DNA of 64,000 nucleotides from Enterocloster clostridioformis (lineage in GTDB: Bacteria; Bacillota; Clostridia; Lachnospirales; Lachnospiraceae), in NCBI RefSeq assembly GCF_020297485.1, contig NZ_JAIWZC010000001.1, positions 992,001 through 1,056,000 of the forward strand, given 5' to 3'. Of this stretch, positions 47,005 to 52,532 are shown piece after piece (positions within the stretch are counted from its first letter, which is position 1; each line of letters begins with the position of its first letter). The notes below the pieces were generated by a model that saw only the letters and a list, made by a program, of their open reading frames with translations, was not told where the DNA came from and did no database searches. Position numbers and translations under genes: made by a program.

Positions 47005-47769
47005 TTAAATTACTAATGGTATCCCGGCATATGTCCACTTAAATGGGTGTGCTGTAAGATTGTATTGTTCAATAAAGCGCAGGATGCTTGCTTCCAGTTC
47101 TTCTATTGATAGGTAGCTTTTCCGCTTCAGCAGCTTCCGGTTAATGATGCCAAACCATATCTCAATCTGGTTCATCCAGGAACTGTGTTTCGGAGTATAG
47201 ACAAAGCGGATCCGGTGGGAAGGGTCATGCAGGAAATCCGCTCGGCTTTCCATACTTTTAAGGATCCCTGTTTTCCCTTTTTTGCCCAGTTCCACGCCAA
47301 GGGCACAGGCTTCTGCCACAAAGCGGACAAGGGCTTCCGATTTATGGGTGTTTAGGCCATCGCATATAAATGTCCATGGGGCTTGCGGGTCTGTCCCTGC
47401 CAATGCTTTCACGGCTTCCACAAAATCCTCTTCTGTGCGTGTGGAGTTTAAATACGGCATTTCCATACGGCCCGTTGCAACATCAAAGAACCCGATGAGG
47501 CTGGTCGTGCCATGGCGGATATACTCAAACTCCATTTTGGCGCACTGGCCGGGTAATGGGAGCTTGTCAGGATATTTATGTTCCAGCGCTTGTACCCCGG
47601 TCATTTCATCCGTGGAAACAATGTGTGCACCTTCCCGGCTTTGTTCCTGGGCACTCTGGTACAGGCCGCAGATTTCGTTTACTTTCCGCGCAAAAGATTC
47701 CGGGGCTTCCGTCTTTTCCGAAGAATGAAGCCAGTAACGGATTTTGTGGGGATGTAAATCTACCTCATT
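47005..47769 (-). CDS. IS630 transposase, ORFB part (DDE domain)
   Basis: 254 residues entered by -1 frameshift from ORFA at 47769-47775. It holds the catalytic DDE triad: Asp in STDEMTG, Asp in FICDGLNTHKS, and Glu in HSSWMNQIEIWFG, followed by the typical RKLLKRKS. The frame has no start or ribosome site of its own at the N-terminus, which supports fusion by frameshift. Confidence 0.85.
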   Translation of the reverse strand, partial: NEVDLHPHKIRYWLHSSEKTEAPESFARKVNEICGLYQSAQEQSREGAHIVSTDEMTGVQALEHKYPDKLPLPGQCAKMEFEYIRHGTTSLIGFFDVATGRMEMPYLNSTRTEEDFVEAVKALAGTDPQAPWTFICDGLNTHKSEALVRFVAEACALGVELGKKGKTGILKSMESRADFLHDPSHRIRFVYTPKHSSWMNQIEIWFGIINRKLLKRKSYLSIEELEASILRFIEQYNLTAHPFKWTYAGIPLVI

Positions 47770-48254
47770 TTTAAAAAACGGCTGACAGATTTCTCAGAAA
47801 TCTGTTCAGCGATCCCCTGCTTTTTAATTTCTGCCACTAACAGCGGGAGACTCCACTGGCTTACTTCGTACCCAAAATCATTTGGGTTGCTGCAGGCAAG
47901 GTCGATGATCCGCATGATCTGGTCCGGCGTAAAAACAGACGGGGCACCGGGGCGTTTTTTATCGGACAGGACTGCCCGTATCTCATCTTCAAGCTTTTTC
48001 GGGTCGTCCATTTCAATCCTCCGCAAGGCTGGGAGCGCCGCGAGGAACCGACTGCGCCAGGTGGCAGCATTATTATAATGAAGCCCGACCTGTGGTGCAA
48101 TATTCTGGTTGAGTTCCCCCTGTGACGCAAGCAGGACAATGCTGGCTCTTTTGACCAGTCCTGACGGAAGGGAGCGGCTTTTTGAAAAAGCAGATAATAT
48201 GTTTTTCATGGCATCAGATAAAACCGGGATAGTATCAATTGTTTTCCTTCGCAT
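47760..48254 (-). CDS. IS630 transposase, ORFA part (HTH domain)
   Basis: 164 residues with helix-turn-helix regions that bind the ends (GLHYNNAATWRSRFLAALPA, in part). The frame runs to a TAG at 47760, but the sequence T TTA AAA at 47775-47769 fits the X XXY YYZ slippery heptamer for -1 frameshifting. Reading through would give a 416-residue transposase. I start at the ATG at 48254; a frame start at 48314 adds 20 residues that lie in the left end. The ribosome site is weak. Confidence 0.75.
   Translation of the reverse strand: MRRKTIDTIPVLSDAMKNILSAFSKSRSLPSGLVKRASIVLLASQGELNQNIAPQVGLHYNNAATWRSRFLAALPALRRIEMDDPKKLEDEIRAVLSDKKRPGAPSVFTPDQIMRIIDLACSNPNDFGYEVSQWSLPLLVAEIKKQGIAEQISEKSVSRFLKMR
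47769..47775 (-). promoter_or_regulatory. -1 ribosomal frameshift site TTTAAAA
   Basis: In ORFA's frame the codons are TTA AAA preceded by T, an exact slippery heptamer. After slipping, ORFB continues in frame without a stop. A stimulatory downstream structure was not checked. Confidence 0.7.
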
Positions 48255-48365
48255 AATAACACATCCATTCTTTAGTGATAGAATTATTATGCACCGACTA
48301 CAATAAAAAAGCAACGTCTATTCATTATTATTTTGGCAATGCTGTACTAGTAACCTCATTTTTTT

Positions 48366-48392: not shown

Positions 48393-48876
48393 TCAACGGA
48401 TTTGCGTTGTTTCACCGTGTGTTGCCGCCTTTACTGTGTTTCTGTCTCCACTGTACTTATGCGCCCTGGCTTTTTCATGACCTCTCGCATCCGGCAGAAG
48501 AAGGTTAAATCCCGCCTGATAAAAAGCCAGCGCTTCTCTTCCAAACCACAAACCGGAATCATCATATTCATGGACCAATACAGCCCATTTTCTATTTGGT
48601 TCACTCTGCACACACAGATAACCATGAAGTCTTAAATGGTCAAAGGACACGATTTCCCGTTCCTCATACCGTGCTTTCAGTATTTTTACTGTTTCTTTCG
48701 GCATTTCTTTCCCTCTCCAGTCCTTTTTTCTGCCTTCTCTGTGCCGGGCGCTGGTTTTAACAGGGCTGATTTATACGCTGCCGCATCCAGGGCAATATGA
48801 AAAAAATATTCTCTGCCAGCAGTCCGGCTATTCCTGCGGCAGTTCCAGCCGCCGTAGCTGTCATAGTTTTCTTCAT
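48393..48876 (-). pseudogene. Truncated alpha/beta hydrolase
   Basis: Pieces of one alpha/beta hydrolase in two or three frames. A first piece from the ATG at 48876 (signal-like, AAGTAAGIAGLL) shifts frame within a run of seven T, and continues to a stop near 48686. A further piece from 48704 has the core WAVLVHEYDDSGLWFG and LLPDARGHEKARAH, then loses homology and stops at 48393. The catalytic Ser and His regions are absent. The gene was cut by the insertion of the region to its left and is dead. Confidence 0.65.
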
Positions 48877-48912
48877 CCAACTGTTGTTGCTAAGCTAATT
48901 TGTCATCCATAC

Positions 48913-48953
48913 TGCTCTGCTTGAATGTCAGAGACTTGCTCTGTATAATGTCA
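48913..48953. repeat. Two direct transposase-site-like repeats at the left end
   Basis: TGCTCTGCTTGAATGTCA (48913-48930) and TGCTCTGTATAATGTCA (48937-48953) share TGCTCTG and AATGTCA. The right end has an inverted relative at 52236-52252. Confidence 0.6.
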
Positions 48954-49003
48954 ATGAACATTCTACAGAAAGAGAAAGTCCCAGAAGACCCTCCCGCTAA
49001 GTT

Positions 49004-49561
49004 GTGTCCTCTGAGACTCATGATAAAACCATGATTATTGTATCAGAGTACACGGAATCTGACAAGGGGGATGGCGTAATTACTATCCATTGTAACGAAA
49101 ATTGTATATGCCCCATATGCCGGTCCCCTGTCAGCCACCGTGACTGGAAACCACGAATCATGAAGCTGGATGGCGGACAGGTGGTGTGGCTGATGATTGA
49201 GCGGAGACGGTGTGACAATGAGGGCTGCCGGAGGCTTCACAGTCTTCTCCCTGATAAGCTCGTCCCTTATAAGCATTATGGCTCCGACCTTATCGCTGCC
49301 GTGCTGGATGGTGATATCATGCCGGAGGATACCATGAACGAGGATTATCCTTGTGATGAAACCATACGGCGGTGGCACCACTGGCTTATGGCAAACTTCT
49401 CCCGGACAGAAGGTTACTGTCGGCAGGCTATGAGCCTCTTAAGGAATCCCGGACTGGCCGGCGCGGCCATTTTGGAAACAATTAGGAAATCCTGTGACAG
49501 GTGGCTTCCCGCTGTCCTGCGCATGGTCTATAACTCAGGCGGTTTCCTGGTATCCGTCTGA
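49004..49561 (+). CDS. DUF6431-like zinc-finger protein of the transposon
   Basis: A 185-residue protein. Residues about 34-60 form a treble-clef or ribbon-like zinc site: CPIC near 36 and CDNEGC near 70. A helix-turn-helix-like segment ETIRRWHHWLMAN follows near residue 120. It resembles proteins annotated DUF6431 that occur next to DDE transposases in Clostridia. By position it could choose the target or aid end binding, as TniQ/TnsD do in other elements. The start is GTG at 49004 or ATG at 49031; neither has a strong ribosome site. It is 78 bases before the transposase gene. Confidence 0.6.
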   Translation: MSSETHDKTMIIVSEYTESDKGDGVITIHCNENCICPICRSPVSHRDWKPRIMKLDGGQVVWLMIERRRCDNEGCRRLHSLLPDKLVPYKHYGSDLIAAVLDGDIMPEDTMNEDYPCDETIRRWHHWLMANFSRTEGYCRQAMSLLRNPGLAGAAILETIRKSCDRWLPAVLRMVYNSGGFLVSV

Positions 49562-49639
49562 GGACATCTTATATGCACCCACTTTGTTTTGGCTGTCAGC
49601 GCTTTTTGCGGTATGCTGTCCAAAAAGGAGGTGCATACC

Positions 49640-51055
49640 ATGCAGACAATCAAAAAAGATTTAAACTGGAGGGATAACGAGGCGCTCTCACGCTACACCT
49701 TGATCGCGCCACTGCTTGATGAGAGCCTGGATCCCGCCAAACGCAGCCAGCTGCGGGAAGAAGCAGCCTCAAAGTCAGGCTTATCCGAGCGTACCATCTT
49801 CCGGTACCTTGCCGCCTATGAAGAAAAAGGCTTCGAGGGTCTCAAACCCGTCGTGCCGGCTCAGGCGGTTGTCTCCGGGAGGCTGCCGGATAATTACCGG
49901 AAGATTGTGGAGCAGGCAATCCAACTGAGGAAGGAAGTACCCAGGCGGAGCGTGGAGCAGCTCATCTTCATCCTGGAGCAGGAGGGCTGGGCGGAGCCGG
50001 GCGTACTCAAGCGCCCTACCCTGCAGCGTCACCTTTATAAAGCCGGTTTCGGCACGAGACAGATGCAGACATACGCAAGCGCACGCGAAAGCTCGTCCAA
50101 ACGTTTCTGCAAGCCCAACAGGATGATGATGCTGCAGGCTGATATCAAGTATGGGTGTAAGCTCCCCATAGGGAAAAACGGGGCGATGGTGCAGACATAT
50201 CTGTCCTCCGCCATCGATGACCACTCCAGATACCTGGTCCATTCCCGGTTTTATGACAACCAGGAGGAAAGCATCGTGGAGGATACCTTCCGGAACGTCC
50301 TCTTGAAGGCCGGGGCTTGTGATGCCGTATACTTTGACAACGGTTCGCAGTATGTGGCAAAACAGCTGAAATTCTCCCTTGCCAGACTTGGGATTACGGT
50401 TCGGCACGCAAAAGTCCGCAGCGGAAAATCAAAGGGGAAAATAGAAAAATTCCATCAGGTGGTCGATGCTTTTCTCAGGGAGGCCCGGATCCATAAGGTC
50501 AAAACACTGGAAGAGCTTAACCGGCACTGGAAAAACTACCTGGAGGAATACTACCATAAGCAGCCGCACGAGGGCATCCGGGAGTATTATGAGAGCCTTG
50601 GCATGCCCGTCCCACCAGAAGGGATCACCCCTCTCCAGGAGTGGAACCGGGACTGCCGGCCTTTAAAGTTCCTGGATACATCCGTAGTGGCGGAAGCGTT
50701 CCTCCATCATGAAGAACGCCTTGTTGACAAGGGCGGCTGTATCAGCTTTCAGGGCCGCAAATATGAGACAAAACCGTCCCTTATCGGTTTCCGGGTGGAG
50801 ATTTCCTATGACCCTGCTTCGCCGGAAACCATCACGATCCGCCATAAAGGGATTGAACCGTTTACCGCAAAGCCGCTCGAAATGAGGCCGTTTTGTGATA
50901 AAAAAGACCCCCTGCCGATTTCCATGCAGGAAACGGAGCCGGATAATTCCCGTATGCTGGAGGCGCTGGAAAAGAAGAGCGCAGCATCCAAAAAGCACAT
51001 GGCAGATGCCATCTCTTTCGGACAGTACAGGAAGGATGGTGGCAGCAATGTATAA
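49640..51055 (+). CDS. DD35E transposase, TnsB/TniA-like
   Basis: A 471-residue transposase. An N-terminal HTH (SKSGLSERTIFRYLAAYEEKG, two parts) is followed by an Arg-rich linker and the rve catalytic core with Asp168 in QADIKYG, Asp233 in FDNGSQ and Glu269 in KGKIEKFH. The D-E interval is 35 residues. The C-terminal part has a beta-barrel-like domain (GGCISFQGRKYETKPSL) and a charged tail that probably contacts the ATPase. The ATG at 49640 has AAGGAGGTG upstream. The stop overlaps the next gene by 8 bases. Confidence 0.88.
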   Translation: MQTIKKDLNWRDNEALSRYTLIAPLLDESLDPAKRSQLREEAASKSGLSERTIFRYLAAYEEKGFEGLKPVVPAQAVVSGRLPDNYRKIVEQAIQLRKEVPRRSVEQLIFILEQEGWAEPGVLKRPTLQRHLYKAGFGTRQMQTYASARESSSKRFCKPNRMMMLQADIKYGCKLPIGKNGAMVQTYLSSAIDDHSRYLVHSRFYDNQEESIVEDTFRNVLLKAGACDAVYFDNGSQYVAKQLKFSLARLGITVRHAKVRSGKSKGKIEKFHQVVDAFLREARIHKVKTLEELNRHWKNYLEEYYHKQPHEGIREYYESLGMPVPPEGITPLQEWNRDCRPLKFLDTSVVAEAFLHHEERLVDKGGCISFQGRKYETKPSLIGFRVEISYDPASPETITIRHKGIEPFTAKPLEMRPFCDKKDPLPISMQETEPDNSRMLEALEKKSAASKKHMADAISFGQYRKDGGSNV

Positions 51056-51860
51056 AGCTTTTTACGAAATGCAGCGTCTCCCTTTCGTGCGCGATATCCC
51101 GTCGGGGATGCTGTATGAGTCACCGGCGATGGCGGACACCCTTGGGCGCCTGTCTTATGTGGCAGACCGCCAGCTGTTCGCCGTGGTGACGGCGGATGCC
51201 GGGTGCGGCAAGTCAACGCTGGTGCGCCGTTTTGTGGAGACGCTCCCCAAAGAGGAATATATCTTCCTCTACCTGTCGGACTCCAAACTGACCCCAAGAT
51301 GGTTCTACAAAGGCATGCTCGACCAGCTGGGCGTGGAATCAAAGTTCTACCGCGGCGATGCCAAGAGGCAGCTTCAGAAGGAGGTGGAGATCATCCGCGG
51401 CGTGCAGGGCAGGAAAGTCGTCTGCATCCTGGATGAAGCACACCTTCTGGAAAAAGAGACCATTGAGGAATTCCGCTTCCTGCTGAATTATAAATTCGAT
51501 TCTATGAGCCCTATGGCACTCGTGCTCGTCGGGCAGACGGAGCTGTGGGATAAACTCCGGCTCCAGCGGTATGCGGCCGTCGGGCAGCGGATTGATTTAA
51601 GCTGCATCCTGCCCCATCTTGACCGTGCGCAGACGGAAAGATATATCCGTTCCCACCTTGCGTATGCCGGAGGCAGGCAGGATATCTTTACCGATAAGGC
51701 CATGGACGAGATCTTCCGCGAGTCCACGGGGATCCCAAGGCGCATCAACCGGATCTGTAACGGCTGCCTGATGTACGCCAGCCAGCAGGGAAAGCGTCTC
51801 ACGGACGAACATCAGGTAAGGTTTGTCCTCGAACATGAGATGCTGGGAGGTGAGGCCTGA
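51048..51860 (+). CDS. AAA+ ATPase of the transposon (TnsC/TniB/ExeA-like)
   Basis: A 270-residue AAA+ protein. Walker A is TADAGCGKST (residues 48-57), Walker B CILDEAH (127-132), and the sensor region is VLVGQTEL. Related to ExeA and TnsC/TniB, regulators that bind ATP and choose or mark the target. The start at 51048 overlaps the transposase stop. It lacks the long C-terminal tail of TnsC. The next gene starts at its last base. Confidence 0.88.
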   Translation: MYKAFYEMQRLPFVRDIPSGMLYESPAMADTLGRLSYVADRQLFAVVTADAGCGKSTLVRRFVETLPKEEYIFLYLSDSKLTPRWFYKGMLDQLGVESKFYRGDAKRQLQKEVEIIRGVQGRKVVCILDEAHLLEKETIEEFRFLLNYKFDSMSPMALVLVGQTELWDKLRLQRYAAVGQRIDLSCILPHLDRAQTERYIRSHLAYAGGRQDIFTDKAMDEIFRESTGIPRRINRICNGCLMYASQQGKRLTDEHQVRFVLEHEMLGGEA

Positions 51861-52156
51861 TGGTTCAGAACAAAGAACATCGCCCGGCAGAGACCTTTGC
51901 TGACCGCATGCGCCAGTCCGGCGTATTGGATCTGCTGGAGGAATACATGGACATCCGGGACGAACTGGAGGAAGCCCTCAATTCCATAGAACTGCTCCAT
52001 GGGGATATCAGGATCGCCATGGATGACATCAGCGGACAGCTTGAAGATCTTCAGGAGCATATGGATAACGTCAGCAGTAAACTGCGCAGGTTCAAATCGC
52101 CGCATGCAAAGCAGTATGAAGTTGTCAAAGATCAAGGCGTGCTTCCATTTGACTGA
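51860..52156 (+). CDS. Small coiled-coil protein of the transposon
   Basis: A 98-residue acidic protein, mostly one long helix (residues 10-75: LLEEYMDIRDELEEALN and following heptads), with a short basic tail. It is joined to the ATPase gene by a 1-base overlap (ATGG/TGATGG), so it is translated with it. It is the right size for a TniQ-like or structural partner but has no zinc finger. Its role is unknown; bridging transposase and ATPase is a guess. Confidence 0.6.
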   Translation: MVQNKEHRPAETFADRMRQSGVLDLLEEYMDIRDELEEALNSIELLHGDIRIAMDDISGQLEDLQEHMDNVSSKLRRFKSPHAKQYEVVKDQGVLPFD

Positions 52157-52199
52157 AAAGCCTATGCAGGAGCACTCTCTATCAAAACGATGGTTTTAA

Positions 52200-52217
52200 G
52201 GGTGGAGAAATCCACCC
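52200..52217 (+). other. GGGTGGA-GAAA-TCCACCC hairpin in the transposon right end
   Basis: A perfect 7-bp stem with a GAAA tetraloop, followed by no T-run. It is within the non-coding right end, 43 bases after the last gene. It is too stable to ignore and too poor in T to terminate. Confidence 0.5.
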
Positions 52218-52235
52218 AGAAGCCACCGCAATGAC

Positions 52236-52252
52236 TGACATGAGTTAGAGCA
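52236..52252. repeat. Inverted transposase-site-like repeat at the right end
   Basis: TGACATGAGTTAGAGCA is the reverse complement of TGCTCTAACTCATGTCA, which matches the two left-end copies in TGCTCT and ATGTCA. The outer end TGTTCAT (inverted) lies at 52265-52271. Confidence 0.6.
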
Positions 52253-52271
52253 GCCTGCTGAAAAATGAACA

Positions 52272-52532
52272 AATCTGGTCAGCGTCATATCAGGAGGTCA
52301 GTAACAATCCAACGATGCCTCCTTAAAAATAAATATTAGCTTCTACTATACTATTTCAAACAATTTCAAATGTCTATAAGAACAAAAAAGGCCATTTCCT
52401 GTTTTAACCAAAATACGAAGAACCTTCTAGTTTATAATTTTTGAATCATCACATAATAGGATTGTAACACAAAACAAGCCATGAACCACTAAACAATTTC
52501 ATGGCAAATATAATACAAGGAGGCGTTTTATT
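52272..52532. other. AT-rich stretch before the SASP gene
   Basis: No gene is seen. An inverted repeat CCATGAA (52479-52485) and TTCATGG (52498-52504) lies just upstream of the SASP ribosome site. CATAATA near 52451 might be a sigma-G -10, but the spacing to a -35 is not clear. The rest is AT-rich with short runs only. Confidence 0.4.

Follow-up and report, generated by a model that had tools for sequence, protein, structure and literature searches.

The window analysed here, a stretch of 64,000 nucleotides from the bacterium Enterocloster clostridioformis (contig NZ_JAIWZC010000001.1, positions 992,001 to 1,056,000), contains a 3425-bp mobile element that can be read with good confidence as a complete, recently active and autonomous transposon of the DDE transposase plus AAA+ ATPase class, with the zinc-ribbon protein DUF6431 as its third core gene and with probable restraint by an antisense RNA. 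The machine itself is a known one; what sets this lineage of it apart is another third core gene, together with a candidate antisense RNA.

Boundaries, copies and genes of the element

The genome of 5.87 Mb, in two contigs, contains several copies of the element. Seven were aligned, namely the window copy, three others of full length, one on the second contig without a right end and two with internal deletions; at 574 kb there is also an eighth copy, which is truncated. The aligned copies are alike from TGTTGTTGCTAAGC to GGTCAGTAACA and divergent outside these points, which sets the element at 48882-52306, with TGTTGTTGCT and TGTTACTGAC as its true ends (the right end read inward is TGTTACTGACC) and a 7-bp duplication around it in the window. 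A preliminary description of this DNA had recognised a transposon of the transposase plus AAA+ class, a classification that is supported here, but had placed its boundaries at 48901..52271 and called its ends Tn5053-like. The copies go on matching for 19 bp to the left and 35 bp to the right of these limits, so that the Tn402-like right end proposed at 52271 is internal and is ruled out; the true ends lie elsewhere and, judged without a tool, are not of the Tn402 type, and the duplications measure 6-7 bp.

The four full-length copies, the window copy included, are nearly identical; the other three depart from the window sequence at 4, 4 and 5 positions out of 3425 and are flanked by the 6-bp duplications TGTTGC, TTTGTA and CTTGAC. 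The copies at 3234k and 5065k of contig C1 share the same deletions in DUF6431 and the transposase, so that both genes are broken, yet are identical over 3247 of 3247 bases at different sites, and one of them has an intact 6-bp duplication, TTTCAC, suggesting that intact copies most likely moved both in trans. Comparison of copies and relatives establishes the boundaries, the duplications, the core gene set and the spread of the copies. The motif TGCTCT-N(4-7)-ATGTCA, rightly described earlier as lying twice at the left end and once, inverted, at the right, is present three times in the 64 kb of the window, where 0.07 occurrences would be expected, a count that none of 100 shuffles reached.

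The gene content is largely as first described: four neighbouring genes lie on one strand (Table 1) and overlap at 51048-51055 and by one base at 51860. The DUF6431 domain scores 82.9 bits against a gathering score of 26.6, and comparison with relatives favours the ATG at 49031 as the start, the GTG at 49004 being possible. PF20020 is matched by all 51 DUF6431 members compared, among which weak zinc-ribbon matches are scattered; four cysteines are invariant across the 51, and the profile of the family has a weak match to a recombinase zinc domain (9e-4). The zinc protein of the preliminary description is thereby identified as DUF6431 and belongs to the core. The transposase possesses rve and Mu-transpos_C domains and an invariant D168, D233 and E269 triad with 35 residues between the last two, in keeping with its earlier DD35E assignment, and the ATPase matches AAA_22 and, weakly, TniB. 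Within the 3425 bp there are no open reading frames (ORFs) beyond the four of the operon, a recombinase domain is lacking, and neither TnsA, a resolvase nor a TnsD/TniQ target selector is present among the element genes. TniQ had no match among the window proteins; a search elsewhere in the genome also gave none, but its control was likewise silent in its 14 genomes, and so this result is uninformative.

Table 1. Positions of the transposon and its features in the window
Feature	Position	Strand	Basis or remark
Whole transposon, 3425 bp	48882..52306	+	ends TGTTGTTGCT.. / ..GGTCAGTAACA; likeness of same-genome copies stops there
Target duplication ATCCAAC, left copy	48875..48881	not applicable	
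Target duplication ATCCAAC, right copy	52307..52313	not applicable	
Left-end subterminal repeat, presumed transposase-binding site	48913..48930	+	
Left-end subterminal repeat, number 2	48937..48953	+	
Right-end subterminal repeat, inverted	52236..52252	-	weaker outer copy at 52283-52301 (-), by eye
Rightward operon promoter, TTGAAT-17-TATAAT	48921..48949	+	consensus match; overlaps end repeats
Predicted antisense RNA of about 70 nt, with estimated ends	48960..49030	-	RNA model
Covarying hairpin of the predicted antisense RNA, followed by a T-rich tail on the minus strand	48978..49017	-	
Leftward promoter, TTGTCA-17-TACAAT, TG before -10	49037..49065	-	consensus match
DUF6431 zinc-ribbon protein	49031..49561	+	PF20020, E 1.4e-23; start from comparison with relatives
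DD35E transposase, 471 amino acids	49640..51055	+	
AAA+ ATPase, 270 amino acids	51048..51860	+	
Variable-slot gene, 98-amino-acid coiled-coil-like accessory protein	51860..52156	+	

Two further loci, at C1:2998k and C2:101k, are degenerate copies of a divergent relative with about 71-76% DNA identity to the element. Near the element, at 47005-48314 on the minus strand of the window, lies a pair of ORFs with DDE_3 and HTH_32 domains that resembles a two-part IS630-type transposase.

A three-gene core with a variable fourth gene

The stable core of the lineage consists of DUF6431, the DD35E transposase and the AAA+ ATPase. A GTDB genome scan provided the best 80 of 198 relatives, to which four loci in viral contigs were added, giving 84 scanned loci; a phage collection contained no match to the element. 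All three genes stand together in 78 of the 84, and DUF6431, annotated or read as an ORF, lies beside the transposase in 81. The loci without a DUF6431 match are L133 and L138, at contig ends, and L101, in which the transposase is truncated, and the ATPase is missing from L132 (contig end), L069 and L092. NCBI annotation names the transposases of the relatives generically.

Among plasmids, 337 records match the transposase at <60% identity, of which 14 were opened and nine picked as relatives with the triad. The triad, annotated or read as ORFs, is present in all nine and reaches distant Bacillota, Actinomycetota and Pseudomonadota. DUF6431 is annotated in six of them (Alicyclobacillus, Ruminococcus albus, Planococcus, Streptomyces, Acidithiobacillus and Metabacillus), and a DUF6431-like ORF with two CxxC motifs was read here in the other three (Thermobacillus, Geobacillus and Rhodococcus). 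In Acidithiobacillus and Geobacillus the ATPase, too, was recognised as an ORF. Three opened loci combine a resolvase with transposase and ATPase (Listeria innocua, Dinoroseobacter and Sphingobium), and the remaining records are one IS481 and one cyanobacterial resolvase element. Of 250 genomes drawn from the family, 29 show the transposase and 40 show DUF6431 (36 above the cut-off), and a transposase match lies just downstream of 32 of the 51 above-cut-off DUF6431 matches.

The fourth gene occupies an accessory slot outside the core. After the ATPase follows a coiled-coil-like protein in the window and some relatives, and elsewhere DUF6618, DUF6075, DUF5348, another ORF or nothing; among 21 elements with mapped ends, the five own-genome copies being counted as one, an ORF of at least 80 amino acids fills the slot in nine and none does in 12. 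PADLOC gave no defence-gene match for six accessory proteins. The preliminary description had treated the four genes as one travelling unit with common ends and had let the coiled-coil protein stand in for TniQ. The ends are indeed shared among the copies, but it is a set of three genes that stays together, with the fourth exchanged or missing, and a substitute for TniQ that is one of several alternatives in a frequently empty slot is ruled out. Without the accessory gene, the element has three genes and about 3.1 kb.

The kinship of the two enzymes was followed through profiles and trees. Among solved relatives, the transposase profile best matched TnsB of a CRISPR-associated transposon (8e-12) and also matched retroviral integrases, and the sole relative of the ATPase profile at E <= 0.001 was MuB (4e-6). 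The transposase scored 153.5 bits against the IS481 model NF033577 and 46 bits against the IS21 model NF033546, below the respective cut-offs of 224 and 160; IS481 is a one-gene family, whereas the present lineage has a three-gene core. A first phylogenetic tree of 23 rows, which included Mu A, B3, IS481 and Annamia as rows with very long branches, did not place the DUF6431-type transposases in one clade and did not settle the wider grouping. A second tree, of 19 rows, separates 16 DUF6431-type transposases, including the three with a DUF6431-like ORF read here, from three Tn552-type transposases on a branch supported 100/100. "Tn552-type" is a label given here to the resolvase-bearing loci, and the tree is without Tn552 itself. 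L078, which contains a stop codon, was excluded from both trees and L195-L198 from the second.

On these comparisons, the closest known kind is Tn552/Mu, from which the lineage stands apart by DUF6431, the lack of a resolvase and its own transposase branch. The Tn552 family, with p480 as transposase and p271 as ATPase, shares the order of DDE transposase and AAA+ ATPase, with similar sizes, but has a resolvase, whereas the present element has none and carries a DUF6431 gene upstream, together with an antisense RNA candidate. A passage on Tn552 describes p271, p480, a resolvase and 6-bp repeats (PMC3276174), whereas duplications in the present lineage are of 6 bp in 14 of 25 cases and of 7 bp in 11. 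Phage Mu (MuA/MuB) and the B3-like phages share the rve plus Mu-transpos_C transposase, the MuB-related ATPase and low-specificity insertion, and the present element differs in being compact (3.4 kb), in lacking phage genes and in possessing DUF6431. The duplication of Mu is 5 bp, unlike the 6-7 bp found here, and the same length of 5 bp holds for Tn5053/Tn402 and Tn7-like elements. These share the pair of transposase and AAA+ protein, but the present element is without their TniQ/TnsD, TnsA or resolvase genes; nor was a dedicated attachment site of the Tn7-like kind found, as insertion sites differ. A 6-bp duplication is mentioned for a prophage of the B3/Tn552 family in part of PMC8705779. 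The lack of TniQ, noted correctly in the preliminary description, is not unusual, since none is annotated beside the three resolvase-bearing Tn552-type loci fetched.

The element could accordingly be thought a Tn552-type transposon minus its resolvase, with DUF6431 as passenger cargo. The common layout of transposase and AAA+ protein and the shared lack of TniQ agree with this, as do the end repeat arrays and duplications of about 6 bp reported for Tn552 in passages of PMC3276174 and PMC8649781. Cargo would, however, be expected to vary, as gene 4 does, and DUF6431 instead accompanies the transposase at the 81 scanned loci given above and in nine of nine distant plasmid relatives; the three Tn552-type sequences also split from the 16 DUF6431-type ones in the second tree, although the first tree did not recover one clade. 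The cargo explanation is thus improbable, and the reading of DUF6431 as a core gene is preferred. Weighing against the overall reading of the element, L069 and L092 have a transposase without an ATPase, 19 of the 51 DUF6431 matches lack a transposase match downstream, the defective copy at 3234k has no target duplication, and the role of DUF6431 rests on conservation.

The 19 matches imply that the domain also lives elsewhere. A short stand-alone DUF6431 protein of about 110-150 amino acids was seen in L161, L162, L165, L168 and L175 (genomes G046, G247, G130, G210 and G149), next to small phage-like genes that recur as a set. No transposase accompanies it there, and the zinc ribbon has apparently been taken into service in another setting. 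L166, L167 and L171 contain another stand-alone form, with the same neighbour gene in L166 and L167.

The leader and its predicted antisense RNA

Relatives show strong conservation of the leader, the stretch that separates the left end from DUF6431. It has no match in Rfam up to E 1 and probably encodes an antisense RNA of about 70 nt. To delimit its hairpin, one arm was picked by a motif and the other by best pairing, giving 52 distinct picks, of which nine (L083, L116, L137, L142, L143, L144, L145, L147 and L152) were dropped by eye and 43 kept; the motif was missing in 12 loci, and two loci were cut. On the minus strand, the 13 pairs of the hairpin are formed in 98.0% of 557 cells, against a shuffled mean of 90.3, and seven of the 13 are changed on both sides, with a covariation of 0.318 against 0.168 in shuffles; for either measure, 0/500 shuffles were as high. 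Sliding the partner by 1-3 columns lowers pairing to 31-50%. The two strands differ clearly, with 546 of the 557 cells pairing on the minus strand and 478 (86%) on the plus strand, a mean minimum free energy of -24.0 against -15.6 kcal/mol, and a mean of 5.5 T against 2.9 T in the eight positions after the hairpin. As the minus strand pairs more cells and folds lower, it is taken as the functional strand, and comparison thereby establishes both the conservation of the structure and its strand. RNAalifold found eight pairs on the plus strand, three with compensatory changes.

A covariance model, run over 52 sources, matched 16 loci that were not in its training set (E <= 0.001). Each of these matches is antisense to DUF6431, and two of the loci, L135 and L136, are near-identical. 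The model also gave five weaker loci and two weak matches on the sense strand, and it recovered five of the nine dropped picks at E <= 0.001. In the window, itself a training member, the match spans 48962-49031(-) with 65.9 bits. Matches in the own genome are exactly the eight element copies, and four of 61 related genomes have matches, the own genome included. Putative promoters lie on both sides of the RNA. The rightward promoter has at least 8 of 12 consensus matches in 42 of the 43 selected loci, and the leftward one reaches a score of at least 9 in every one of them. In 40 its position is shared and a TG precedes the -10; 40 also combine this TG with a -35 at 16-18 nt spacing.

Several observations weigh against this RNA. 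The promoters are consensus matches, a leftward score of 9 also being reached by 127 of 860 shuffled regions, and the leftward promoter lies partly inside coding sequence. The outer seven pairs of the hairpin were partly selected by the picking, the inner six being unselected; the sense strand of the window copy, considered in its entirety, does not fold better than its shuffles (z -0.92); and the model has no match in the distant relatives L152-L156, L187-L189, L193 and L194.

In many relatives (e.g. L079, L132 and L075), the DUF6431 frame is split. The zero-frame start follows the hairpin at a distance of at most about 30 nt and opens a conserved peptide, M-V/I-I-I/V-S-D-Y..D-I/V-F, which leads to a run of T5-6 and a stop; the remainder continues in another frame. 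In 54 distinct cases with a start, the offset is 1 in 34, 2 in four and 0 in 16, some of the zeros being misread; in 12 further cases the start was not located, and the window copy is in frame. The split is a candidate for programmed frameshifting or internal initiation. The ratio of non-synonymous to synonymous variation (pN/pS) in 21 sequences is 0.66 in the zero frame and 0.89 and 1.10 in the others, modest support for coding.

Two other functions of the hairpin were considered. It might act in the sense mRNA, controlling translation or transcription, as would be allowed by its position in the leader, downstream of the rightward promoter and ahead of the first gene; its loop CCUCC could pair with a Shine-Dalgarno-like AAGGAGGA inside the reading frame, as judged by eye. 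The strand difference makes this unlikely, however, as the pairs lost on the plus strand are G-U pairs turned into A-C and the T-rich tail is confined to the minus strand. It has similarly little probability that the leftward hairpin is a mere terminator, stopping internal antisense transcription before it exits the element, with the leftward promoter a by-product of the protein start M-I-I-x-S-D-Y. The -10 does cover codons 3-5, and the low zero-frame pN/pS speaks for coding constraint; yet the third bases of codons 4 and 5 within the -10 are invariant in the 21 sequences, where most other third bases vary, and the TG and the -35 spacing kept in 40 of the 43 loci also count against it. An antisense RNA is therefore the preferred reading of the leader.

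This predicted arrangement resembles RNA-IN/RNA-OUT of IS10, in which an inward operon promoter is likewise opposed by a promoter for an antisense RNA of about 70 nt to the 5' leader. IS10 is unrelated in sequence and transposase, and the first target gene here is DUF6431, not the transposase. RNA-OUT is described in part of PMC5006887 as a 69-nt antisense RNA that covers the translation start of the transposase mRNA. Transposase genes are among those enriched for antisense transcription in gut metatranscriptomes, according to a passage in PMC4555090, which fits the predicted RNA but is no test of it.

Insertion sites, proposed mechanism and significance

Target duplications were sought at 103 loci (93 and 10 more) and were accepted at 25, with a length of 6 bp in 14 cases and of 7 bp in 11, many of the remaining loci being cut by contig ends; a 5-bp candidate at L099 was excluded. 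When flanks were swapped between loci with the ends kept fixed, 0/600 pairs matched. Five of the nine plasmid relatives have duplications (L155, L156, L189, L193 and L194), whereas none was found at L153, L154, L187, L188 or the three Tn552-type loci. The 6-bp and 7-bp duplications differ in register and are thus both genuine; copies of one element, that of the window, have either length within a single genome.

No clear common target sequence is apparent among the 25 insertions, so that a target consensus was rejected. In the 7-bp set, all 11 start with A or C and 9 of the 11 have T as their second base, figures uncorrected for the many positions inspected, and A+T amounts to 61% within 30 bp of the insertion sites. 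Insertions lie inside ORFs in 15 of 22 cases against 377 of 440 control positions (Fisher p = 0.06), which leaves insertion away from genes as a trend only. Together, the lack of a shared site and the ORF counts suggest low-specificity targeting. Of the earlier proposal that the element chooses target sites differently, what stands on sequence comparison is this suggested low specificity.

As we infer it from the architecture, the transposase would bind the arrays of about 20-bp repeats at both ends, similar to the subterminal arrays described for Tn7, Tn5090, Tn5053 and Tn552 in a section of PMC8649781. The MuB-like ATPase would bind target DNA and recruit or activate the transposase; in Mu, Tn7 and IS21, according to part of PMC11208146, the ATPase loads on target DNA and activates the transposase at paired ends, and the ATPase of the element should do likewise. 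Strand transfer with a stagger of 6 or 7 bp would then produce the duplications, with no fixed site sequence. The antisense RNA would start at the leftward promoter inside the DUF6431 gene, be complementary to the operon leader and end in the hairpin, and would probably hold down expression as RNA-OUT does in IS10.

DUF6431 is a zinc-ribbon protein of the DNA-binding kind whose gene opens the operon. It would be a standing partner of the transposition complex, and most likely its adaptor or regulator. Because this gene comes first and the predicted antisense RNA lies at its start, DUF6431 would be expressed and controlled with the transposase. Taken singly, an adaptor to the ATPase or target is the role tentatively placed first, a regulator is possible and ranks behind it, and an end-binding cofactor is rather unlikely. 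A more specific proposal, that DUF6431 replaces TniQ as the adaptor between ATPase and target DNA, that the antisense RNA exerts copy-number control on this adaptor gene instead of on the transposase and that the +1 split of the frame at a T-run in many relatives may be a second control, is doubtful.

Open-access PMC papers yielded no description of the element or of the antisense RNA, and DUF6431 was found in one of them, as an annotation. CRISPR-guided insertion was recruited from among the AAA+-dependent transposons, for which the link between ATPase and target is a live question. A widespread, compact lineage that has no TniQ and keeps another zinc protein provides a testable alternative to TniQ-type adaptors, and the small size of the element would make laboratory testing easy. 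Should the antisense RNA prove to be transcribed, it would represent an RNA family that is new and clearly supported by covariation, would amount to an IS10-like brake in a class of transposons unrelated to IS10, and would explain why the leader is conserved across a family of gut bacteria.

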